DNA of 64,000 bases, from positions 30,608,213 to 30,672,212 of the forward strand of contig OX387185.1 in NCBI GenBank assembly GCA_947561395.2, given 5' to 3'. Source of the DNA: Buxus sempervirens (Eukaryota > Streptophyta > Magnoliopsida > Buxales > Buxaceae). Of this stretch, positions 7,139 to 41,070 are shown piece by piece. The stretch's first letter is position 1. The number at the start of each line of letters is the position of its first letter. The position numbers and the translations under genes are program-made. The notes beneath the pieces are model-generated. The model had not been told where the DNA came from. It worked only from the letters and a program-made list of their open reading frames with translations, and made no database searches.

Positions 7139-7148
7139 TTTATATAAG
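7139..7148 (-). promoter_or_regulatory. TATA box of Tat-A LTR
   Basis: Minus-strand CTTATATAAA at the U3 end of the LTR. A dyad (7159-7183) ends 10 bp upstream. The alignable position in solo LTRs 22363-22372 and 34131-34140 is also a TATA box. Confidence 0.6.
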
Positions 7149-7158
7149 AAAAATTTTT

Positions 7159-7390
7159 GTATCTGGCCTTGAAGGCCGGATACACTAAGTGCTATGTGTA
7201 TCCGGATACACTAGAGCTTTCTTGTATCCGACATTTTATGTCGGATACAATTGTAATTATTTCAAAATTTTAATGCCACCATGTATCTGTCGGCAAATCC
7301 GCACGAATCCAGCGAGCAAATCTTTTGTATCCAGCAATATATGCCGGATATGAAGATAAAAGTGTGTATCCGACATTAAATGTCAGATAA
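7159..7390 (-). repeat. GTATCC...GGATAC dyad array (39-bp period) in Tat-A U3
   Basis: Inverted repeats of about 25 bp begin at 7159, 7198 and 7224, and again at 7327 and 7366. Spacing is 39 bp for 7159/7198 and 7327/7366. The 26-bp step at 7198/7224 fits the second dyad having lost 13 bp (GTATCC directly joined to GGATAC). One dyad has arms GTATCCGACAT and ATGTCGGATAC around TTT. Confidence 0.75.
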
Positions 7391-14511: not shown

Positions 14512-15030
14512 TTTTCTCCATCCGGACTCCGATTTGGGCAAACTCAGTTGCGTTAGGGTCGTATCGGAGCCCTCTATCCGATGACCTAGGGGTAGGCATC
14601 TGGATCGGATTTTAGCAGAAAGTCAACTTTCGGCTCCCCTCAAGTTTGACCGCCCGCAGAACCTTCATCCGGACTCCGATTCCTGCAAACTCAATTGCGT
14701 TGGAACCGTGTTGGGATTCTCTATCCAATGAAATAGGGGTAAGCATCTGGATCGGGTTTTAGCAGAAAGTCAACTTTCGGCTCCCCTCAAGTTTGACCGC
14801 CCGCAGAACCTTCATCCGGACTCCGATTCCTGCAAACTCAGTTGCGTTGGAACAGTGTCGGGATTCTCTATCCAATGACATAGGGGTAAGCATCTGGATC
14901 GGGTTTTAGCAGAAAGTCAACTTTCGGCTCCCCTCAAGTTTGACCGCCTGCAGAACCTTCATCCGGACTCCGATTCCTGCAAACTCAGTTGCGTTGGAAC
15001 CGTGTCGAGATTCTCTATCCAATGACATAA
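14512..15030. repeat. 147-bp tandem repeat in Tat-B U3 (4 units)
   Basis: Units are marked by TTCATCCGGACTCCGATTCC. The GAACC anchors at 14659, 14806 and 14953 are exactly 147 bp apart, with a more diverged unit before them (from about 14512). The other LTRs of the family have 2, 3 and 4 units at 146-148 bp spacing. Confidence 0.88.
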
Positions 15031-17422: not shown

Positions 17423-19829
17423 TTAGGCGTAGTACAGTTTGACTGCATCTGCATTTATCGGCTCAGAAAAAATTGCCCCGTCCATTTCTTGTAGGATGAG
17501 TGCTCCCCGGGACAGAACTTTGTGGACTACTAACGGCCCTTCGTAGTTTGGCTTGAATTTCCCTCTGTTGTCCTCTTGATGAGGAAAGATTCTCTTTAGT
17601 ACCAAATCTCCCCCTTTGAAGTGCCATGGCTTCACTTTCTTGTTGTAGGCTCGTACCATTCTCTGTTGATAGAGCTGGCCATGGCACAAAGCCTTGATCC
17701 TCTTTTCATCCAACAATTGCAACTGGTCAAATCTGGACTCCTCCCATTCGACGTCACTGATCTCAGCTTCCTTTAGAATCCTGAGTGATGGAATCTGTGC
17801 TTCCACTGGGAGGACTGCTTCCATTCCATATACCAGGGAGAACGGGGTTGCCTCGGTCAATGTCCTAATCGACGTCCGATAGGCATGTAGTGCATATGGC
17901 AGCTTCTCGTGCCAGTCTCTGTAGGTGACCACCATTTTCTCGAGTATCCTCTTCAGATTCTTGTTGGCGGCCTCTATTGCTCCATTCATCTTGGGCCGGT
18001 ATGCTGTAGACTTTAGATGTCTAATCTTCAGATCTTCACACATCTTTTCCATGTCCCTATTATTCAGATTCTTTGCATTGTCAGTGATGATCGCTTCTGG
18101 AACTCCGTAGCAACAGAGTATATTGTTTCTGATAAACTTGATCACATGAGATTTCTTCACATCCACGAAGGACATGGCCTCCACCCACTTGGTAAAATAG
18201 TCAATTGCCATTAAAATGAACCGATGCCCGTTTGAAGCCATTGGATGAACCTGGCCTATCATGTCGATTCCCCAGATGGCAAACGGCCAAGGTGATGTCT
18301 TGGAGTACAGTGTATTCGGCGGTGCATGGATGTTGTTGGCATAAATCTGGCATAACTGGCATTTTCTGATATGAGCATAGCAGTCTGCCTCCATGGTCAT
18401 CCAGTAATAGCCCATCCTTAGAATCTTCCTTGCTAGCATATGCCCATTCATGTGTGCGCCGCACAACCCTCCATGGACTTCCTCAATCAATTTCTGCGCC
18501 TTACCTTCTCTGACACATAGCAGTAGGGAGTCATTGTATGACTTCTTGTATAGTCTGCCCCCACTGTAGAAGTACTGCCCTGCCAACCTCTGTATAGTTC
18601 GCTTTTCTGCAGCCGAGGCACCTTCTGGCAGAATTCTGTTTCTTATGTATCTCTCAATGTCTGCGTACCAAGGTTCTTCTTCGGGTGTGCTTTTCTCGAC
18701 ACTGAAGCAGTAAACAGGGTAGCGCCGAATTTCTATCTCCAATGGTTGCACCCAAGTATCATCCGTGATGGTGGCCATTGATGCCAACGTAGCTAGTGCA
18801 TCCGCAAACCGGTTCCTATCTCGTGGCATGTAGTTGAATGTCACGCTCTCGAATTCCTGTTCTAATTCCTTGACCAGTTCTTGGTATGGTACCAACTTCA
18901 CATCTCTGGTTTTCCAGTCTCCCATCACTTGGTAGATGATAAGACTTGAATCACCAAACACCTTTAACTCCTGTATATGCATCTCAATTGCCGCTCGCAG
19001 GCCCAACACACATGCTTCATACTCGGCCATGTTGCTGGTGCAATCAAACAGGAGTTTCGCTGCTATTAGGTGATGAACACCATCTGGGGAGATTAGCACT
19101 GCTCCGATCCCCTTTCCATTTACATTGACTACCCCGTCAAAGAACATTTGCCACCTGGTTTCCTCTGCCTCTTCTGTGGACTCGGCACACATCACGTCTT
19201 CGTTTGGAAAGTGAGTCAGGAGTGGTTGGTAATCCGGTAGGGGATGCTCTGCCAAGTGATCCGCCACAGCTTGCCCTTTTATCACCTTTCTAGTCATGTA
19301 GACAATGTCGTATTCAGACAAAAGGACTTGCCACCTGGCAACCCTACTAGTGGAGATCGGCTTCTCAAAGATGCATTTCAACGGATCCAGATTTGAGATC
19401 AGCAAGACTGTGTGACTGAGCAAATAATGCCGAAGCTTCTGAGTTGCCCAGACCAAGGCGCAACACGTCTTTTCAAGCAATGTATATCTAACTTCGATGT
19501 TGGTAAATTTCTTGCTCAGGTAGTAGATCGCTTGTTCTTTCCTTCCTTTCTCATAGTGTTGCCCTAACACACACCCTACAGCCGTCTCGGAGACTGTCGG
19601 ATACATAATCAAGTGTCGTCCCGGAACAGGCGGGACCAATGTCGGCGGACTCATCAGATAGGCCTTGATCTTATCAAACGCCACTTGGCAGTCTTCATTC
19701 CAAACTACAGGGTTATCTTTCTTTATTAGCTTGAATATAGGCTTACACACAGGAGTCATTTGCGCGATAAATCGGCTAATGTATTGCAGCCTGCCCAAGA
19801 ACCCTCTTACTTCCTTTTCAGTCGATGGA
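17423..19829 (-). pseudogene. Tat-B pol 3' half: RNase H, second (archaeal-type) RNase H, integrase
   Basis: One open frame of about 800 codons. Order: end of RT (STEKEVRGFLGRLQYISRF), Ty3-type RNase H (YYLSKKFTNIEVRYTLLEK region), then a second RNase H with FFDG, MAEYEA, GDSSLI and NRFADALA supplying the D-E-D-D set. A second, archaeal-type RNase H is diagnostic of the Tat lineage. Integrase follows: HMNGH...CQLC zinc site, then D in WGIDMIG, D in ITDNAKN and E in NGAIEAANK, all three catalytic acids present. It ends in a chromodomain-less C-terminal tail with FKPNYEGPLVV. The first 18 codons of the apparent ORF come from the inserted solo LTR, so this half has no start of its own. The break is the LTR insertion, not internal decay. 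Confidence 0.93.
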
Positions 19830-20931
19830 GGAGGTGTGCGCGCGTGGGAAACGCGGCACGGGAAATTCGGAGTCGCCACCGCCTGATGGGGTGCAGGCGG
19901 ACACCTGGGTGCCTAACCTTGTCTATTAGGGCTTTTGGTCTGCGGCTTTGAGATTCTAAGTAGGGTCTCGGTTGTGGTCCGGGGAAGTCCGTAGACACCC
20001 CGGTCCACCCCGTTGGATGACGGGTCCCTTAGGTTTATCCTGGTTTGAGTCAGCTTACTTTGGTCTCACCTGATTCCTAATCCGATATGCAGTTTGGTTA
20101 AGTCTGGCGGGACCACCTGAGTGGTGTGGGTCCCTTTAATTGCTTTTATCTTGATTAATTAGGTGATCTGGGTCTGGTTGGGTGGGCCCTGTTGGAAGGC
20201 CCACGGTGTCCTTGGTGGGCTTTGGTCAAGCCCATGTACCCTTGTAGGCCTCAGTCTAAGCTTGAGAGGTCCTTTGGGCTTTGGTTAAGTGCATTTATTT
20301 TTCTTTAGGTTCAAATTTGAAGATTAAGTGTTTTCCATGCAAAGGTGGGCCGGATTGGTTTGTGGGCCCCTTAGGTGGGCCCACATGGTGGCCAAATAAT
20401 TTTATTGGATTTATCTTTTTAATTTGCCAAAGTGTGTTGGACACTGGGCTTGGGGCCCGTAGTCCAAATCTGGGCCTGTAAGCCCAAGTTACCAGAAGTT
20501 AGGGTTTGCACCCTTCCTTGGTTTGGTTGGTGGGCTTTTGCGGGCCCGGTAGGCCCTTGCCCTTGGTCTCGGCCAAACCATGCAATTCATGCATCAATTC
20601 ACTAATCTGGTTCGGGTAGACCGACTTAGGTTTGGCCTGCCCGGTTTAATCAGTTAATTTTACTTATCTTGATTAAGTTGCATGCATACCTTTTATTATA
20701 TTTATTGGGCCGGGTGGGCCCCGTTGGAAGGCTCACTGGAAATCAAGTTGGACCGGGGGTCCAAGTCCCATATTGGGTTTCCGGGTGACCCGGAAACCCT
20801 TTTGGCTCATTTGGCTTGATTTAGGAATGCCACCCATGCCTAGCAAAAGTTACAGAATATACATCACAGAAACATATAAAAATTGATATTTATCAAGGAG
20901 AGACTGGCTCATTATACTGGGTTCAAGGGGA

Positions 20932-21310
20932 GGGATTTTTCGGGATTTTTCAAGGTAAAGGGCATTTTTGGGATTTATCAAGGTAAAGGGCATTTTCGGG
21001 ATTTTTCAAGGCAAAGGGCATTTTCGGGATTTTTCAAGGTAAAGGGCATTTTCGGGATTTTTCAAGGCAAAGGGCATTTTCGGGATTTTTCAAGGTAAAG
21101 GGCATTTTCGGGATTTTTTAAGGTAAAGGGCATTCTCGGGATTTTTCAAGGTAAAGGGCATTTTCGAGATTTATCAATGTAAAGGGCATTTTCGGGATTT
21201 TTCAAGGTAAAGGGCATTTTCGGGATTTTTCAAGGTAAAGGGCATTTTCGGGATTTATCAAGGTAAAGCGCATTTTCGGGATTTATCAAGGTAAAGGGCA
21301 TTTTCGGGAT
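20932..21310. repeat. 28-bp tandem array inside solo LTR
   Basis: About 13 head-to-tail copies of GGTAAAGGGCATTTTCGGG followed by ATTTTTCAA. Some units carry ATTTATCAA. The Tat-B 3' LTR has this unit once, at about 12951, so the array expanded in this copy or its source. Confidence 0.9.
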
Positions 21311-21404
21311 ATGCGCCGACCTCAGGCACTAGGCGCATGGTCAGCGAGGTGGGCGGACCAAAAAAAACCAGAAAAACAAGCCCCGGGCGAAGTGGGCGCA
21401 CCCA

Positions 21405-21610
21405 AAAAATGAAGTGGGCGCGAGCTGAGCGCACCCAAAAATTGAAGTGGGCGCGAGCTGAGCGCATCCAAAAATTAAGTGAGCGCGAGCTGAGCGCATC
21501 CAAATTTAAGTGAGCGCATCTAAATTTAAGTGAGCGCGAGCTGAACGCATTCAAATTTAAGTGAGCGCGAGCTGAGCACATAAAAAGGGAAGTGGGCGCG
21601 AGCTCAACGG
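21405..21610. repeat. GCGAGCTGAGCGCA tandem array (about 30-33 bp unit)
   Basis: Six to seven imperfect copies of AAGTGAGCGCGAGCTGAGCG plus CATCCAAATTT. The GAGCTGAGCGCA core resembles an arm of the U3 dyad in the same LTR (GCTGAGCGCATAC at 22405-22417). Confidence 0.75.
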
Positions 21611-22030
21611 ATGCCCAGAAAGACGATCCGCTCACCCTTTTCGGGTGCACTGAGCTCGGCGCATACCCTACGAAACCCAATATTTTGGTTTTTTTTTGCC
21701 CGAACTCCATTTTTAATGGTTTTTAAGCTCTGTAATCACTCTCTGGGGATCCTTAGAACCCCAGACGACTTCTAAACACAATTGGAAATTAATCTAACCT
21801 AAGTTGTGAGGATCAAACCTCTTCGCAAAACTACAAATCCGAAACGAAACATTAACAGAACATACAAAGAAGGGAACTGGGGGCTTTATCGGGGTACATG
21901 AGATCAGAGAAGGTGACCTTGGGAACAGACTCCCACCTTCAAATCAAACAAGCCTGAACAAAAAATAACATGCTAACATGGGAAACATGCTCGATTTATA
22001 CATGTTAAAACAATAACAGGGAGGGAGCTC

Positions 22031-22034
22031 ACCT
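22031..22034 (-). other. Putative 5' splice donor in solo LTR
   Basis: Minus-strand GAACCAAG|GTGAGCTCC, junction 22033/22032, about 330 nt downstream of the TATA box. Aligned with donors in the sister LTRs. Confidence 0.45.
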
Positions 22035-22362
22035 TGGTTCCAAACCTTTGTAGAGCAGGCCGGAGGGTTCCCTGGAGCTCACGAGCTGCTGCCGGAGCCT
22101 CCTTCTTCCCCCACCAACAGCATGACCTCCTTCAGGTTCGTCGAGGAAAGAGAGGACAAGAAAGAACGGGGTCAGAGGGGCTTCAGGTGATGGTGATGTC
22201 GGAGGTTTTGTTTGTAAAGACAAGGGGGTATACGGAGGGGGTCTCGAACCAGGCAAGGTGGGGAAGAAGGCTTGAGCCAAGAGAGCCAACACCCAGCAAA
22301 ACCCGAACTTGAGAACTGCCAAACAAAAAATGCTGAACCCCTTTGCACGAAAAGTCGCGCGG

Positions 22363-22372
22363 CTTATATAAG
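22363..22372 (-). promoter_or_regulatory. TATA box of solo LTR
   Basis: Minus-strand CTTATATAAG, followed by GCCGCGCGAC. It lies 15 bp downstream of the dyad 22388-22417. Confidence 0.6.
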
Positions 22373-22387
22373 CAAGGAAAAAAAGCG

Positions 22388-22417
22388 GTATGCGCTCAGC
22401 TTGCGCTGAGCGCATAC
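22388..22417. repeat. Perfect 13-bp dyad upstream of TATA
   Basis: Arms GTATGCGCTCAGC (22388-22400) and GCTGAGCGCATAC (22405-22417) around TTGC. It sits where the other LTRs have GTATCCGGC...GCCGGATAC dyads, keeping the outer GTAT...ATAC but with a different interior. Confidence 0.85.
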
Positions 22418-23342
22418 TCGCTTGCCACGTCCGCGCGAGCGGCAAAATGATGAAAAATCATTTAATGCCGCCGCTCGCCGGTCGGAAAATCCGACATTTT
22501 TTGAATTTAGTCCCTGGTTATTTTAAGTTTAATCCGATATTCCGAGATTTTTACAGATTTAGTCCCTGGGATATTTCGTATATTTGGATATTTACGGATT
22601 TGATCCCCGAGATATTTTCCTGCGCCACTTGTCACGTGTGCAGCTTTTTGCCACGTGCACAGATTGCCGGTTTTGCTGCTCGGAAACTTCATCAGCTCAT
22701 ATTTTCTTCATCCGGACTCCGATTCCTGCAAACTCAGTTGCGTTGGAACCGTGTCGAGATTCTCTGTCCAATGACCTAGGGTAGGCCTCTGGATTGGATT
22801 TTAGCAGAAAGTCAATTTTTGGCTCCGTTCAAGTTTGACCGCCCGCAGAACCTTCATCCGGACTCCGATTCCTGCAAACTCAGTTGCGTTGGAACCGTGT
22901 CGATATTCTCTATCCAATGACCTAAGGGTAGGCTTCTGGATCGGATTTTAGTAGAAAGTCAATTTTTGGCTCCGTTCAAGTTTGACCGCCCGCAGAACCT
23001 TCATCCGGACCCCGATTCCTGCAAACTCAGTTGCGGTGGAACCGTGTTGAGATTCTCTGTCCAATGACCTAGGGGTAGGCCTCTAGATCGGATTTTAGTA
23101 GAAAGTCAACTTTTGGCTCTGCTCAAGTTTGATCGCCCGCAGAACCTTCATCCGGACCCCGATTCCTGCAAACTCAGTTGCGTTGGAACCGTGTCGAGAT
23201 TCTCTATCCCATGGCAAAAGCGAGGTGGCCAATTTTCACTTGATCAAAAAGTCAACTTTTCACCCCTTAGGGTTTGACTTTCTGTTCAGGGTTTGCATTT
23301 TTGGTTTTTCTGGGAGCGCAAAAATGAGGTGCTTATAGGATG

Positions 23343-24838
23343 CATCTCCAGAATTGCCTTTAATTTGACGAGGTCGACCTCAATGCCCCGATTGCCCACT
23401 ATGAATCCGAGCAACTTTCCTTAAGTAACTCCAAATACGCACTTGTTTGGGTTGAGCCGGAGCTTGTGCTCTCTGAGTCTGTCAAACACTTTTCTAAGGT
23501 TCACCAAGTGGTCTTCTTCTTCCTTAGACTTTGCTATCATGTCATCCACATATACTTCCATTTCCTTGTGCATCATGTCGTGGAACAACAGAGTCATCGC
23601 ATGCTGATATGTAGCGCCCGCATTCTTCTGTCCAAAAGGCATCACGCGGTAGCAGTAAGTGCCCCAATGCATGATAAAGGATGTTTTCTCCGTATCCTCA
23701 GGTGCCATCCTCATCTGGTTGTAACCAGAGAAGCCGTCCATGAAAGAGAACATTGAATGCGTTGCTGTATTGTCCACTAGTACATCGATATGCGGCAATG
23801 GGAAGTCGTCTTTTGGGCTTGCTCTATTCAGATCTCTGTAGTCAACACACATCCTGACTTTCCCGTCTTTCTTGGGAACTGGCACGATGTTGGCCAACCA
23901 CTCTGGATAGTGAGTTACTTGCAGGAATCCGGCATCCAACTGCTTGGTGACCTCTTCCTTGATCTTCAGGGCCCATTTCGGCTTCGTGCGCCTGAGCTTC
24001 TGTTTCACAGGTACGGCCTCAGACTTTGTTGGTAATCGATGCACAACCAAGTTCGTGTCTAACTCGAGCATATCCTCGTATGACCATGCAAACACGTCAG
24101 AATAAGATTTAAAAAAATCAATCATCTGTTTTCTCAGTAATTGTGACAGTTTTTTACCAATTTGGAGTATCCTTGGTTGTGCTATTTCACCTATGTCAAT
24201 TGACTCTGTTTTCTCAACGTTGGCCTGGAGACCCTTTTCGTGCCTTTCCAATGCGAGTTGGATTTCAAGCGGGGTCTCCCATGATTCATCGTCGTCCTCA
24301 TGCTCGAAAGGCTCATAGGGGACGATGTCTGAATCTTCGAGCTGCAATGGGCAAGTGCCCCAATCTGACTTGTCGAGTTCTTGCTCGTTTTCAAGATTGG
24401 ACATTGGCTCATGCATTTCATTTATTATTGCCATCTGCACTGGCCTTTCAATTTCTTTTTGTTCTTTTTGTTCAATTATGGCAATCTTATTACCTATCCC
24501 GTGCCCCAGATCTTCCAGGTGTGCGTCGGGATTGATACTAAGATCGCGATGCTTAAGTTGCTTATTTTTGTTATTTTCATTTTCAAACAGATGCAAGTAG
24601 TAGGAAGCATTCAGATATTCATTAAAAATTTCAGCAGTAGCTACAACAGAAATTTCAGAGGTGATAGAAACCCCCTTTGGGATAGTAGCTTTGTTGATGG
24701 CAAAAGGCCTGGCGCTCCAATTCTTCAGTGGTGCCCCGCCTTCCTTGTTGATAATGATGGTCGCCTCCCATTCTCCAGCTAGCACCATGTTGGTGTTCTC
24801 GTCAGAAGAGATGTAGATAGGATCATGTGCTGCGCCTT
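23343..24838 (-). pseudogene. Tat-B reverse transcriptase
   Basis: Frame from 24788 to 23421 encodes a linker and then RT: WLANIVPVPKKDGKVRMCVD, SFMDGFSGYNQ, MPFGQKNAGATYQ and the active site YVDDM (plus strand about 23540-23558). The palm catalytic residues are therefore intact. The frame stops at 23421-23423 (TAA) where relatives continue GVTSGKLLGF. It continues in the same frame to 23343, reading GKLLGFIVGNRGIEVDLVKLKAI, and is then cut by the solo LTR. The N-terminal boundary is a frameshift near 24835. The sequence type matches Tat/Ogre RT. Confidence 0.92.
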
Positions 24839-32657: not shown

Positions 32658-33289
32658 TGTAGCGCCTCGGAACCGGGTCTGCCCATACGGGGCACCAACC
32701 AGTCCCCAAGACTTACTTATGGGCCCAAAAGAACCTAATTGACAAAATCAAGGGCAATTACATGGTAATCATCAGAGTACAATTAAGCATAAGAAGCATG
32801 GAATAAAATTTTCTATCTAACAATAGCCACCTATATAATAATCTTAAAGATGTGATACCTGTGTATAACAAAAGGGTTAACTAAATTCCCACAATATTTT
32901 TCTCATATGTACAATCACATACTAAAGTCATAATCCAAAATAAAGTTATTACATCCCCATTCACAATTCCCAAAAACTAAAACAAGCAACATATGGAGAA
33001 CCCTACTATGGGCTGTAGTAGTCCTCAGGCCTATACTCAGGCTCTCCCTCTGGCTCTATCCTAATATCGTGCTCACACAGGGGATCTGAAAACAAATCCG
33101 GTAAAACAAAACATGCGTGAGACTTAAAGTTCCAGTAAGCAACAAACACGCATGAATGTAAGCAGTTTATGCAATTCATATAGTATCTGTAAGCACCTCA
33201 TTTTCGCGCTCCCGAAAAGCCAGAAATGCAAAACCCGGCCAAGAAGTCAAACCCTGAGGGGTGGAAAGTTGACCTTTTAATCAGATAAA

Positions 33290-33680
33290 ATTTGGTCACC
33301 TTGATCTATCCCATTGGATAAAGAATCTCGACACGGTTCCAACGCAACTGGGTTTGCAGGAATCGGAGTCCGGATGAAGGTTCTGCGGGCGGTCAAACTT
33401 AAGGAAAAGCTAAGAGTTGACTTTTCCTCGATTTCCGTGCCAAATACCTTACTTTAGCCCAATGGATAGAGAATCCCGACACGGTTCCAGCGCAACTGGG
33501 TTTGCAGGAATCGGAGTCTGGATGAAGGTTCTAAGGGCAGTCAAACTTAAGGAAAAACCAAAAGTTGACTTTTTATCGGAATCCGTGCCAAGTGTTTAGC
33601 CCCACGTCATTAAATAGAGGGCTCCGATATGAGTTTAACACGATTGAGTTTGCTCAAATCGGAGTTCGGGTGAAGGAGAT
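33290..33680. repeat. 147-148-bp tandem repeat in solo LTR U3 (3 units)
   Basis: AATCGGAGT anchors at 33361, 33509 and 33657 are each 148 bp apart. Units have the CACGGTTCCAACGCAACTG phrase of the other LTRs in reverse complement. Confidence 0.85.
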
Positions 33681-34017
33681 ATGATCTGTCGAAGTTTCCG
33701 AGTAGCAAAAGTCGGAAACTACACACGTGGCAGCCAACGCAGAAAAATATCTCAGGGACTAAATCTTAAATATAAAAATTTCGTACGCGCGATCCGTAGA
33801 TATCAAAAAGGGTCAAATTAGTCGAATCGGTCGAGTCGGTCAAGTCGAAGGGCAAATCTGTAATTTTTCGATTTGCATCCGGTCACATATACCGGATACA
33901 CTGCCTATCCTTCATAGCCGGACTTGAAGACCGGATACATAAAGATATTCGCGCGAAATTCGCGCCACTTGGCCGACAGATTCGCGGCGGCATTAAATTT
34001 TGAAATGATTAAGTCAT

Positions 34018-34120
34018 GTATCCGGCCTGAGTTGCCGGATACAAAGGGGAGCTAGTGTATCCGGACTTCAAGTCCGGATACGAATAGGCCTTAGTGTATC
34101 CGGCCTAAGTTGCCGGATAC
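34018..34120. repeat. Three phased dyads (39-bp period) abutting the TATA box
   Basis: Dyads start at 34018, 34057 and 34096. First and third have 9-bp arms GTATCCGGC / GCCGGATAC with 7-nt centres. The middle has 12-bp arms GTATCCGGACTT / AAGTCCGGATAC around a single C. The last ends 10 bp before the TATA box. Confidence 0.92.
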
Positions 34121-34130
34121 ATTAAGTTGC

Positions 34131-34140
34131 CTATAAATAG
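34131..34140 (+). promoter_or_regulatory. TATA box of solo LTR
   Basis: CTATAAATAG, the best TATA match in the LTR, followed by a pyrimidine-rich leader (TTTTTTCTGTTTCC). It is positioned as in the sister LTRs. Confidence 0.65.
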
Positions 34141-34419
34141 CAAACCAGCAGCTCATATCCGGGGTTGGCTTCATTTTTTCTGTTTCCACCCTTCCTCCCT
34201 CAGACCCCCTGCTCCGAAACCTCTTCCTTTTGGCCACCCTTGGCTCCCCTAAGCCATCCAAGCCTTACTCCAAGGCTCACCCACCCTCTTCTTTCTTCTT
34301 CCTCTCCATTCTCACTGAAATAAGGACTGAGGAAGCTGCTGTGCTCAAGGAGGAGGACTTCCAGCTGCTGTCCAGCCCCAAGGAGGTACCCATACGTTGC
34401 TCAAGAGGCCAAGAACCCT

Positions 34420-34426
34420 CAGGTAT
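34420..34426 (+). other. Putative 5' splice donor in solo LTR
   Basis: AACCCTCAG|GTATTG, junction 34422/34423, about 290 nt downstream of TATA, at the position of AG|GT donors in the three related LTRs. Confidence 0.42.
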
Positions 34427-35010
34427 TGTTCCCTAACACATTGTATTCAACATACATTAAATCTAGATTTTTCTGAAAATATATGCTTCCATTTGTTTTC
34501 TTGTTCTGCATGGCCTGGTTCTAGCATGATTTGTGTATATTTTGGTGTTCCTCTCATGGCATGGAATCACCACAAGTATGGTACCCACGTAGGGATAGTT
34601 TAAGAGGCACAAAAAGTCCAATCTTAGATGCATTCTAATATGCTGTATTTCCTGTTTGGAGATTTAGCTTAAGGTATTTTCGGGAGGAGCATGTTCCCCC
34701 TTGGTATGTAATCAAATGTATCCCCATGATAAGCCCCCTCCTCTCTCCTTTCTTCAAAATTTTACTTGTCCGATGCATGACTCATTCTAATATCTTACTG
34801 TTGTTTTCTTTTGTGTGCAAGCATACTCCGTCACCCCCAAACCCCCATTGGTTTTTGCTAGAAGAGATCCAAAAGGAGAAGCCAAGTGTGGCTTCTCCCA
34901 AACCTGAACATACGTGGGCTCATCCAGGAGCCCACAAGACTCTTAAGATGTTCCTGGGAACCCCAAGAAGTCATCCCAAGTGGCAAAATACCCAAAATGG
35001 CCATTTTAGG

Positions 35011-35155
35011 GTGATCCGGCAACTCAGGCCGGATCACCTGAGGCCTAGGTATGTCCGGCAACTAAGGCCGGATAACCTAGGGCCTCTGTGTATCCGGCCA
35101 CGCTGGCCGGATCACCTGCAGACCCTGTGTATCCGGCCTGAGTTGCCGGATACAC
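35011..35155. repeat. Second dyad array in the same LTR (4 units, 39-bp period)
   Basis: TCCGGC cores start at 35015, 35054, 35093 and 35132, exactly 39 bp apart. Arms include GTGATCCGGC / GCCGGATCAC (35011-35037) and GTGTATCCGGC / GCCGGATACAC (35127-35155). They would be in the leader if transcription starts after 34131. Confidence 0.92.
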
Positions 35156-38049
35156 ACAGCAGCATGAATTTTGCATATTTTTTATCCCTTGCCGAATTGT
35201 GGATGATTTGTGTCAAAACCATTGAACCAGCAGGGTTTCCGGTCCACCTGGAAACCCAACTTGGAACTCGGACCGATCGGTCCAACTTGGTACAATAGTG
35301 GGCCTTCCAACGGGGCCCACCAAGCCCAATGAACTCCAAAGCATGCTAATTAAATAAATCTAAGTAAAAAGAACCAATCTAATCGGATGGGCCAAACCCA
35401 ATGCGGCCCACCCAAGTCTTGTCATATACATGAATGCATAAACTGCCTGGTTTGGCCAAGACCATGGGCTAGGGCTTGCCGGGCCCGCCAAAGCCCACCA
35501 ACTAAGCCAAGGAAGGGCTCAAGCCCTAACTTCATCGAATTTGGGGTTTTCAAAGCCCAAAACCGGACTATGGGCCCCAAGCCCAATGTCCCAAAAGACT
35601 TTGACTCAAATGTAAATAAGATGAGTCTAAAATACTCTTGGCCACCATGTGGGCCCACCTAAGGGGCCCACAAATCAATCCGGCCCACCACTTGCATAAA
35701 AGCAACTTAATAATCAAACTTGGACCTTAAAACCAACTCATTACCCAAAGCCCACAGGGCCTTCTAGGGCTAGACAGAAGCCCACCAAGGGCACACGGGC
35801 CAACTCAAGCCCATCCAGGACACCGGTCGGGCCTTCCAACAGGGCCCACCCCAAACAGACCCCGATCACTTAAGTTAAGAAAGGATAAAATCAACTAAAG
35901 GGACCCACACCACTCAAGTGGTCCCGCCGAGACTTAACTTAAATACCTGCTGGATTAGGAATCGGGTGAGAACCAAGCAAGAGAGCTGACTCAAATCAGG
36001 GAACCCACGGGACCCGTCATCCGACGGGGTGGACTGGGGCGTCTACGGACTTCCCCAGCCCGCAACCGAGAACCAACCTTAGAATCTCAAAGCCGCAGAC
36101 CCAAGAGCCTTAATAGACAAGATTAGGCACCCAGGTGTTCGCCTGCACCCCATCAGGTGGTGGCGACTCCGAATTTACCTCGCGCCGCGTTTCCCACGCG
36201 CGCACTGTATCATGATAACATTCACTGATATTAAATATAAAACACAGGAATAAAAGTAGTTTATGCAATTTTTATAAAATCATGATAAGATTCTTAGTTA
36301 TAAGGTAGAATCTCAAGTCAAAGTATCTAAATCGGATAACACATAGAATTAGTTCGATAGACCTAATCACTTGCTACAAGCATATCTTGGTAGGACTCAT
36401 AATATAAAACAAACCATTCGCATCATTTACTAGCACCAATGCCTCAATGCACAAACAAAGTGGAATTCCCCATCCACTGGCATTCAACCAAGGCTAAGTG
36501 GAATTCCCCATCCACTGTCATTCAAACAAGGCCAAGTGAAATTACACATTTACTACCAAGTGGGACTACTCATCTACTACTAAGTGAGATTACTCATTCA
36601 CTGCCAATCAAACCCTAGGCCAGGTGCTTGGTCATATCACATAAGAGAGTTCATCATACTTTTACCAAATCAAATCAATATTCACAAAGTGTAAGAAATA
36701 ACCAATAAGCACTTCACATCCAAAGCCAAATCAAAGTAAAATACATACACCATAAAGTCCACAAAACACAAATCAGGGTCGAGTGGAATTCTCCATCCAC
36801 TGCCATTCAACCAAGGCCAAGTGAGATTATCCATACCAAAAAATCAATGGATTCCATGACAAAAAGTTTTTGACCTTGAAAAGTATTCCAAGTCTGGTAA
36901 AAAACGTTGACTTTTTGGGTATATGATTTTTCTAGACAAATCTACTTGGAGTTTCGGGCTCAAATCTTGATTGTAATCTAATGAAGGGTTGACAAATTTT
37001 CTATAATTTTATGGGATTCTAAATCCTTAATTTGTGTATCAAACTAAACAAGTGGTTTTTGGTGAAAAAATGGGCAAAACTGGAATTTTAGGCATGAACT
37101 GGAAAGTTGACTTTTTATTGGTAAGGAATTAGGTCTTGGGAGTATTTTTAGAGGTTCCAAATGGGGGTTAAAACCTTATTTACACATAAAGATTTAAGTA
37201 AATGGAGACAATAAAATACATAGGACATTTACTTAAATGGATGGAACAAGGGGTGAAGGATTGGAAAATCAGGGCTCACGATTAGCTCCACGAATAATCT
37301 CCCCTAGGCGATTTCCATCGTGATTAGGTTTGCGATTAATTGCCGAGCTAATCTTGATTCACGATTAATCGCCGGGACTAATACTGTCCTTAACAAAGAC
37401 TGTTTTTGGGTGTTCTTGCCCAGGATTAATTGCCAAATTCCAAGATTAATTGCCAGCTCAGGTTCTTACAAATTTTTAGCTATTTTCCAACACCAAATCT
37501 ATACAAACCATTTCTAACCTTTCCAACACCAAATGGGATGATCATAAAACATCCCAACATGCTCAAAACACCTTCCAAAACTGGAATCCATCTCAAATCC
37601 ACATGAATACAAATCTAAACACATGAAACCTCACTCAACATATCAAACTCTAACCCAAAACTAAAATGTGATCAATATAGGTTGGAAATCCATGGCAAAT
37701 CAATAGAAAACTAAACAAGATAGTTATATAACCAAAACCATACGAATTTTAGAAGCAAAAACCAACATGCAAGTGATTTTCCAGTTTAACCAAACCCTAG
37801 GAGAGAGAAATACGAAAATCTAGTAAATTCATTTTAGTTGGAAGGGTTTGTTACTTGTTTAATGAAGAAGCACAATTTCTCTTCAATCTTTCTCCTTCTT
37901 CTTCTGCTTCTTCACCAAGCTTCCAAGTCCTCCACACTCTCTCTTTCTCTCTTGTTCTATACGTAGAACACAAGAAGGGGTGTTCAATAACACTCAAAAT
38001 ATTAAGCTAGGGCATCCTTTTATATGCCTTTCTTTTGTTTATCAAAGTT

Positions 38050-38691
38050 GCCCCTCAACAAGTCTTTTATTCTACTAAACCCTTGGGGGTACCTAAGGGT
38101 TATCAAGGGGGTACCTTAGTGTTATGAGGGGGGGGGGGGGGGGGGGGGAGGTACCTTAGTGTTATGAGTGGATACCTTGGTGTTTCAAGAGGGTTTACCT
38201 TAGTTATTCCAAGGGGTATACTTTAGGTGTGCTTGGGGGTGTACTTTAGTAATATAAGAGGGGCACTTTAGTTATAGAAGGGGTATACCTTAGTTATATG
38301 AGGGGGGTACCTTTAGGTAATACAAGGAATGTACCCTAGGTAATATATGGAGTGTACCTTAGGTATACAAGGAGTGTACCTTAGTTATATTGGGGGGGGG
38401 GGGGTACCTTAGTTATATAAGGGGGTACCTTAGTTATACAAAGGGGGGGGTACCTTAGTTATATTAAAGGGGTACCTTAGTTATACAAAAGGGGGTACCT
38501 TAGTTATATTAAGTGGAGTACTTTAATTATATAAAGAGGTACTTTAGTTATACAAATGGAGTACCTTAGATATTCAAGCGGTGTACCTTAGGTAAAACAC
38601 GGGTATACCTTAGGCAATACAAGGGGTGTGCCTTAGGCAATACGAGGGTGTACTTAAGTTATATTAAGGGGGTATCTTAGGTATAATTGGG
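38050..38691. repeat. G-rich minisatellite, core GGGGGTACCTTAGTTATA (left part)
   Basis: Some 25-30 degenerate units of about 20 bp, alternating G runs with TACCTTAG and TATA-like segments. It includes G21 at 38128-38148 and about G13 near 38391-38403. The array resumes at 40620 after an inserted LTR. Confidence 0.9.
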
Positions 38692-40619: not shown

Positions 40620-41070
40620 GGTGTACTTTACTTATATAAGGGGGTACTTTAGGTATACTTGGGAGGGTACCTTAGGTATACAAGAGGGTACTCTAAGTAT
40701 ATTTGGGAGGGTATCTTAGGTATAATTGGGGGATACTTTAGGTATAGTTGAGGGATACTTTAGGTAATATATGGGTGTACTTTAGGTAATACATGGGGTA
40801 CTTTAGGTGTAGTTGGGGGATACTTTAAGTAATACATGGGGGTACTTTAGGTATAATTGGGTGGTACCTTGGAAAATACATGGGTGTACTTTGGGTAATA
40901 CATGGGTGTACCTTAGGCATACGATGGGGGTACCTTGGGTAATATTTGGGGTTGCTTTAGGTATTTTTAGGAGATACTTTAGGTACACTTAAGAAGTACC
41001 TTGGGTATACTTGAGAGGGTGTACATTTGGTTTACTTGGGGGGGGGGGGGGGGGGGGGGGGGGCGGGGGT
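40620..41070. repeat. G-rich minisatellite (right part)
   Basis: Same unit type as 38050-38691 (TACTTTAGGTATAnTTGGG variants), ending in G26 C G5 at 41038-41069. Together the halves form one array of about 1.1 kb split by the solo LTR. Confidence 0.88.

Follow-up and report, generated by a model that had tools for sequence, protein, structure and literature searches.

Palindromic CGG-N9-CCG dyads in a 39-bp register as a candidate operator of Tat/Ogre-type retrotransposons in Buxus sempervirens

A solo LTR and its dyad arrays

The DNA analysed here (the window) is a stretch of 64,000 nucleotides from Buxus sempervirens (assembly GCA_947561395.2, contig OX387185.1, positions 30,608,213 to 30,672,212 of the forward strand), and positions within it are counted from its first letter. 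It contains a solo long terminal repeat (LTR) of 3,019 bp from a Tat/Ogre-like Ty3 element (33188..36206, plus strand), which begins TGTAAGCACC and hosts the palindromic dyads that are our subject. The target-site duplication GTATC lies in the flank sequence on the left (33183..33187) and on the right (36207..36211), unstranded in both places, and homology to the sister copies sets in at 33187/33188. Parts of this LTR are 78–82% identical to the LTRs of neighbouring Tat-type elements, and it is itself without genes.

Nine dyads are found in the solo LTR, five of them in its upper half. Three had been noted first, in a preliminary description that placed their starts at 34018, 34057 and 34096 and the end of the last one 10 bp before CTATAAATAG; sequence and repeat analysis agree with this. 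All three are 25 bp long and on the plus strand. Dyad 1 (34018..34042) and dyad 3 (34096..34120) have the same arms, GTATCCGGC and GCCGGATAC, and the middle dyad (34057..34081) has the arms GTATCCGGACTT and AAGTCCGGATAC around a C, this centre being C or G among sister copies. The TATA box CTATAAATAG follows at 34131..34140 (plus strand), separated by 10 bp from the end of dyad 3 at 34120. The six further dyads, also on the plus strand, comprise a weaker upstream pair recognised by repeat analysis (33875..33899, less conserved within the family, and 39 bp after it 33914..33938, seen in the copy alignment as well) and a second array of four (35012..35153), with starts at 35012, 35051, 35090 and 35129 at the same 39-bp step, ~0.87 kb downstream of the TATA box. 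A diverged related LTR on the minus strand (7159..7390) has dyads at 7159, 7224, 7327 and 7366, some with arms CCGA/TCGG; the first two are 65 bp apart and the last two 39 bp.

The motif of the dyads can be written GTATCCGG(Y)-N7-(R)CCGGATAC, i.e., GTATCCGG-N9-CCGGATAC, or CGG-N9-CCG. The 676-Mb genome contains GTATCCGGN9CCGGATAC 20,444 times, whereas the same pattern reversed, as a control, is absent from it. Gaps and register were counted in 244 kb made up of the window and L013–L030, a sample whose densities are not genome averages because 180 kb of it, all from outside the window, were chosen at or next to exact matches to this pattern. Among 194 cases of ATCCGG followed by CCGGAT, the gap is 9 in 100 and takes no other value among 0–20, the remaining gaps up to 60 being only 21–23, 34–35 and 47–48. 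For CGG-Nx-CCG, with gaps of 0–30, the peak is again at gap 9 (128). The distance from CCGGAT to the next ATCCGG gives a free count of the step. In 68 cases it is 18 bp, equal to a 39-bp unit, and the remaining cases, counted up to 60, have gaps of 5 (8 cases), 17 (3), 30–31 (28), 38 (1), and 56–57 (43, two units). Hence, the 39-bp spacing is not peculiar to the window copy and is common to other copies and families.

A dyad scan of 24 sequences (the window, L003–L008, and L013–L029) returned 54 arrays with 179 dyads: four dyads in 29 arrays, two in 15, three in 9, and six in 1. Their steps of 38–40 bp are 39 bp in 121 of 125 cases, a proportion conditional on the chaining, which allowed 38–40 only. 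Arrays often have, in their first or last dyad, the centre YAACTCAGR or its reverse complement (L017, L026, L029, window 35012, and others). A pattern of one and a half dyads (24 fixed bases in the 39-bp register) had 0 matches in viral contigs and 0 in prokaryotic genome contigs, and a search for related DNA in plasmids found none. The same solo LTR is found again on this chromosome, ~0.4 Mb upstream (C6:30228001–30248000; L031, L032), at a locus that we read as a segmental duplication or an assembly duplicate. As its LINE and Copia open reading frames (ORFs) are the same as those of the window, L031, L032, and L002 (the same place) are not independent copies, and they were omitted from the counts.

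Arrays in longer relatives and their TATA boxes

Related arrays occur in Tat/Ogre-type elements of ~23 kb, found on C1 with LTRs of 2,271 bp; in one of them (3441494–3464309) the two LTRs are 100% identical. This family has 4 dyads per LTR and 10 internal ones. Class A arrays lie inside the LTR at a distance of 90 bp from its start, and class B arrays are in the leader, ~1.5 kb past the LTR. Class C arrays are upstream of an antisense ORF that starts close to the array, and class D arrays are ~0.7 kb before the 3′ LTR. The antisense ORF assigned to array D is ~1.3 kb from it, so that a link between the two can only be inferred. In one ~23-kb element, two antisense ORFs correspond to the plant mobile domain (PMD), one being PMD/DUF7745 (PF24924, 7e-19, with PF10536, 5e-13) and the other PMD (PF10536, 6e-14); an extra ORF of this sort is a trait of the Tat clade. 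A search for a solved structure of one PMD ORF found none. Several chromosomes repeatedly carry two PMD ORFs, of ~575 and ~590 aa, at a distance of ~3.4 kb from each other, for example at C10:32400939 and C10:32404363, with 8,447 first-look candidates.

The affiliation with Tat is also seen in a neighbour with a related LTR in the window (17423–24788, minus strand), where RVT_1 is followed by RT_RNaseH, RVT_3, and rve. This is the Ty3 Tat order, with a second RNase H (aRH) between RNase H and integrase. According to the available excerpts of Neumann et al. 2019 (PMC6317226), Ogre and Retand have a second RNase H in this position, and PMD is present in 57% of Ogre elements.

Arrays of several classes are adjoined by a TATA box. 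Counted outward from the array, it starts at 11 bp in the window-type LTR (7/7 arrays), at 12 bp in class C (5/5), and at 9 bp in class D (3/6). In the minus-strand LTR it starts at 12 bp (1/1), as TATATA (7141..7146, minus strand) beside dyad 7159, which is out of 39-bp register with the next dyad. In the U3 alignment (19 rows, the window and 18 copies), the 10-bp spacer between dyad and TATA box keeps its length in 19/19 rows while its letters vary. An array abutting the TATA box, as in the preliminary description, is thus correct for the window LTR and is not a general rule, as it applies to four of the eight array classes.

Conservation and covariation of the arms

Between nine insertions, the core of the dyads differs much less (179/2,304, 0.078) than the loops (257/1,008, 0.255) and the spacers (398/1,400, 0.284). 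Among the 19 U3 rows, the differences from the window copy are 1.3% in the core, 9.0% in the loop, and 6.2% in the spacer. Between lineages, no part changes more slowly than the core, which is what a need for it in active lineages would lead one to expect. Recent tandem duplication, of the minisatellite type, can be ruled out, since neighbouring units agree in their cores but differ in their loops and spacers.

In 118 unique dyads, pairs 4–9 are paired in 91–99% of cases, mostly by the same letters. Pairing exceeds that of shuffled arms at pairs 1, 2, 3, 5, and 10, and weakly at pair 9; at pairs 11–13, which are within the inner 7 bp, it is no higher than in shuffled arms. The test was repeated on 39 dyads, each class and position being represented by one existing dyad, with one mis-registered minus-strand dyad dropped and five pairs pre-picked from the 118-dyad test. 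The five variable pairs jointly exceed all 5,000 shuffles, and pair 10 is complementary in 27/39 dyads (expected 15.3; reached by 0/5,000 shuffles), although these shuffle figures are not clean probabilities, as the 39 dyads share ancestry. Two-sided changes are exemplified by TAACCGG/CCGGTTA in array B and by TGATCCGG/CCGGATCA in the second array of the window, with TATCCGG dyads in the same arrays. The arms covary across copies beyond shuffled arms, in both sets of dyads, as the preliminary description had anticipated. Its further statement that symmetry is kept while sequence drifts is accurate for 10 pairs and fails for the inner 7 bp, and pairs 4–9 are conserved mostly as letters.

It had also placed the dyads under selection for symmetry. 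This goes further than the data, since some sister copies have inverted centres, which suggests that a mutational process alters both arms together. Two of these inversions are exact over 9 bases: TCACATATA versus TATATGTGA (L043 against its sister copies) and ATACTCAAT versus ATTGAGTAT (L015 against L024). The centre of the middle dyad is C in 9/19 rows and G in 10/19, with a further adjacent change in four rows (L040, L042, L043, L044). Loop inversion and multiple compensatory changes have been reported, among others, as marks of template switching (PMC8794818). Because a template switch may change both arms in one event, covariation alone is no proof of selection for structure. Template switching between the arms probably helps to keep them matched. 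One may go further and suppose that such switching, or conversion between the inverted arms, during reverse transcription or replication, keeps the symmetry and flips the centres without any selection. As a full account we think this unlikely, as it leaves unexplained the constancy of TATCCGG across families, the gap of 9, the step of 39, and the position of arrays by TATA boxes. In addition, the C/G centre requires 6 steps on the tree, and many other sites need as many, whereas the remaining flip candidates are inexact (8/9) or barely above the direct match (class C, 8 vs 7).

The covariation of the variable stem pairs would also fit a structured RNA, with the arrays acting as hairpins in the genomic RNA (which includes the U3 of the 3′ LTR) or as a source of small RNAs, as proposed for Sirevirus palindromes. 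The palindrome clusters of maize Sireviruses are small-RNA hot spots (PMC10760457 and PMC5311732, excerpts). Seven of eight stretches do fold strongly (z from −7.9 to −12.7, with 0/200 shuffles as stable), but so would any palindrome array, and the eighth, the upstream pair, folds weakly (z −2.6, with 3/200 shuffles as stable). Several features make this explanation improbable. The core is conserved as letters and not merely as pairs, the inner 7 bp are free, sense-strand mismatches show no clear excess of G-U (26) over A-C (17), and the arrays adjoin TATA boxes in both sense and antisense orientation. A single array-wide hairpin is unconvincing as the conserved unit, loop complementarity in 26 four-dyad arrays being 3.2/7 between d1 and d4 and 2.1/7 between d2 and d3. 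In Rfam, window positions 33000–36000 gave two sub-threshold matches, none at the dyads. The letters of pairs 4–9 are mostly kept, which pure structure would not require, and this favours a DNA-reading protein.

A candidate operator and its precedents

On balance we hold it probable, and the best reading, that the dyads form a multimeric operator through which a dimeric DNA-binding protein regulates several promoters of the element. This is close to the preliminary proposal of a multimeric site for a dimeric factor. Neither of the two outcomes named there as refuting it, arms without covariation beyond chance or a 39-bp spacing confined to this copy, was observed. In favour of the operator are the single gap of 9 between facing half-sites among gaps of 0–20, the conserved letters of pairs 4–9, the low divergence of the core, the TATA boxes 9–12 bp outward of arrays in four classes, the constant distance from dyad to TATA box in the U3 rows, and the antisense PMD ORFs of one element. 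Each GTATCCGG(Y)-N7-(R)CCGGATAC dyad would be the site of a dimeric sequence-specific protein, and the fixed 39-bp step would let several dimers load side by side. In the window LTR, the array just upstream of the TATA box would most likely determine how active the element's own promoter is. A single regulator could control sense and antisense units jointly in the ~23-kb relatives, as related arrays are found in the LTR, in the leader, and by the TATA boxes of two putative antisense units within the PMD-encoding region. We infer the dimer binding, the antisense promoters, the co-regulation, and activation rather than repression from sequence features.

A number of observations weigh against this operator. 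No TATA box is near the array in four of the eight classes (A, 0/15; B, 0/5; Bw, 0/7; and U3up, the upstream pair, 0/7 arrays). Against a background frequency of 3.0% (1,633/54,000) for a TATA box at one or other end of a stretch of 142 bp, TATA proximity in four of eight classes has P = 5e-5 and speaks for the operator, but the classes and the 0–13 bp limit were chosen once the data had been inspected, and only one copy represents the minus-strand class. One of the 19 U3 rows has altered TATA letters (L036, TACATAAA). In these rows, the core of the upstream pair changes more (10.2%) than its loop (4.0%), and the plain flank at 33942–34014 differs by 2.8%, i.e., less than loops and spacers. 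Six presumed 5′/3′ LTR pairs have 3/384 changes in the core, 0/168 in the loops, and 1/251 in the spacers, small numbers for which P is 0.35. Four of these pairs align, over stretches of 343–2,272 bases at 99.2–100%, and two (L022/L023 and L024/L025) have no aligned stretch above the 300-base cut, their tiles ending soon after the array, and are paired by their distance of ~20 kb. Finally, a homodimer site alone would not predict covariation of the arms.

The antisense PMD proteins are candidates for the regulator, given the arrays at two putative promoters in their region; a host factor is as likely or likelier. Dyads are found within ~1.4 kb upstream of the PMD domain in none of the 8 places checked, of 117 PMD places listed, which tells against dyads as a general mark of PMD genes. 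Nor do they resemble the DOWN motif linked to PMD mutants in Arabidopsis, CATGCAGTTT. One may imagine an antisense PMD protein that, as a dimer, occupies the CGG-N9-CCG dyads and activates its own antisense promoters as well as the sense promoter in the LTR, while the dyads invert their centres by template switching and stay symmetric as they drift. A Ty3 retrotransposon would then activate itself through a circuit like that of a retrovirus; we regard this as a rather doubtful conjecture.

Another role for an element-encoded protein is suggested by VANDAL elements, which are DNA transposons. By analogy with their VANC proteins, it might bind the arrays in the noncoding DNA of its own family and lift silencing, rather than work as a classical activator of the promoter. 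Available excerpts of PMC5735166 describe VANC21 as binding a short motif in noncoding tandem repeats and VANC6 as binding a motif-dense region in vitro. Both systems have dense arrays of a short motif in noncoding parts of one transposon group; the VANDAL motif, YAGTATTAY, differs in having one orientation, and its reader protein is known (PMC5735166, same excerpts). Anti-silencing pads would suit those arrays of the LTR and leader that have no TATA box beside them, and the antisense PMD proteins encoded by the ~23-kb family (one element). The lack of dyads at the 8 other PMD places and the dissimilar DOWN motif tell against them, and we consider them quite unlikely.

For the operator, the closest precedent is in Sireviruses. 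As far as the accessible text of Bousios et al. 2010 (PMC2829016) goes, 13 Sireviruses have palindromic repeated motifs (RM), with a CGG-CCG core in 12. A criterion for the RM is a minimum of eight copies per element, grouped in the upper LTR half. Within the LTR they cluster ahead of the TATA box, and elements that carry ENV have them upstream of this gene as well (77/79 linker copies). Excerpts of later papers tie these palindromes to small RNAs and cis-regulation (PMC10760457, PMC5311732). The dyads resemble the RM, as described in these sources, in the CGG-CCG palindromic core, the LTR clusters shortly upstream of the TATA box, and the clusters at a second gene. The closeness to the TATA box is found in the window LTR (10 bp) and is not seen in the class A LTR array (0/15) of the ~23-kb family. 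The Citrus RM, AATCCGGCTWRCCGGATT, shares the ATCCGG half-site, with a gap of 4 instead of the 9 found here. Unlike the RM, the dyads have a fixed 39-bp step, form arrays of 2–6 (four in 29/54), and in their second-gene arrays accompany putative antisense PMD units. The carriers also differ, being Ty1/copia for the RM and Tat/Ogre-type Ty3 for the dyads, which would thus work alike without being members. Given this precedent, the dyad arrays are a variant, in another superfamily, of a kind of array already described.

Less close are Tnt1 and other LTR enhancer repeats, which are likewise repeated and sometimes palindromic LTR cis-elements. We know of no CGG-CCG core or 39-bp dyad register among them. 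Box I of Tnt1 is cited as symmetric in the excerpts of PMC2829016. Retand and Grande have extra antisense genes between pol and the 3′ LTR, and gene23 of maize Grande has its own promoter (PMC11963269, PMC6317226, and PMC7264820, in part); unlike here, palindromic dyad arrays are not mentioned in the available text of these papers. In it, the string "palindrom" appears only in one reference title of PMC11963269 and is absent from the main text of PMC6317226 and PMC7264820. The preliminary remark that no such array was known in Tat/Ogre LTRs therefore needs a qualification: no description of palindromic arrays in Ogre/Tat LTRs was found in the literature searched, which included few subscription papers, but arrays of the same kind have been described, in the accessible text, for Sirevirus LTRs (PMC2829016).

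If this reading is correct, Ty1/copia Sireviruses and Ty3 Tat/Ogre elements, two unrelated classes of plant LTR retrotransposon, use the same kind of CGG-CCG dyad array both by the main promoter and by a second gene, suggesting a common host factor or a regulatory logic that evolved repeatedly. The motif and its register would then be defined targets for finding the reader protein, and could offer a regulatory context for the unexplained antisense genes of Tat elements, while the palindromes with inverted centres would be natural replicates for the study of template switching.

Other repeats are present in the window. Tandem repeats of 147–148 bp lie in the upstream part of several related LTRs, on both strands (14519–15029, 22706–23213, and 33310–33591). 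In an LTR copy of ~3.5 kb (19835–23338, minus strand), the dyad scan found no dyads; this copy appears nested between the reverse transcriptase part (23421–24788) and the RNase H/integrase part (17423–19879) of a Tat-type pol, and contains ~13 copies of a 28-bp tandem repeat (20937–21310). Two further arrays consist of a 22-bp unit rich in GGGGGTAC, with ~20 copies at 38236–38685 and ~18 copies at 40640–41042.
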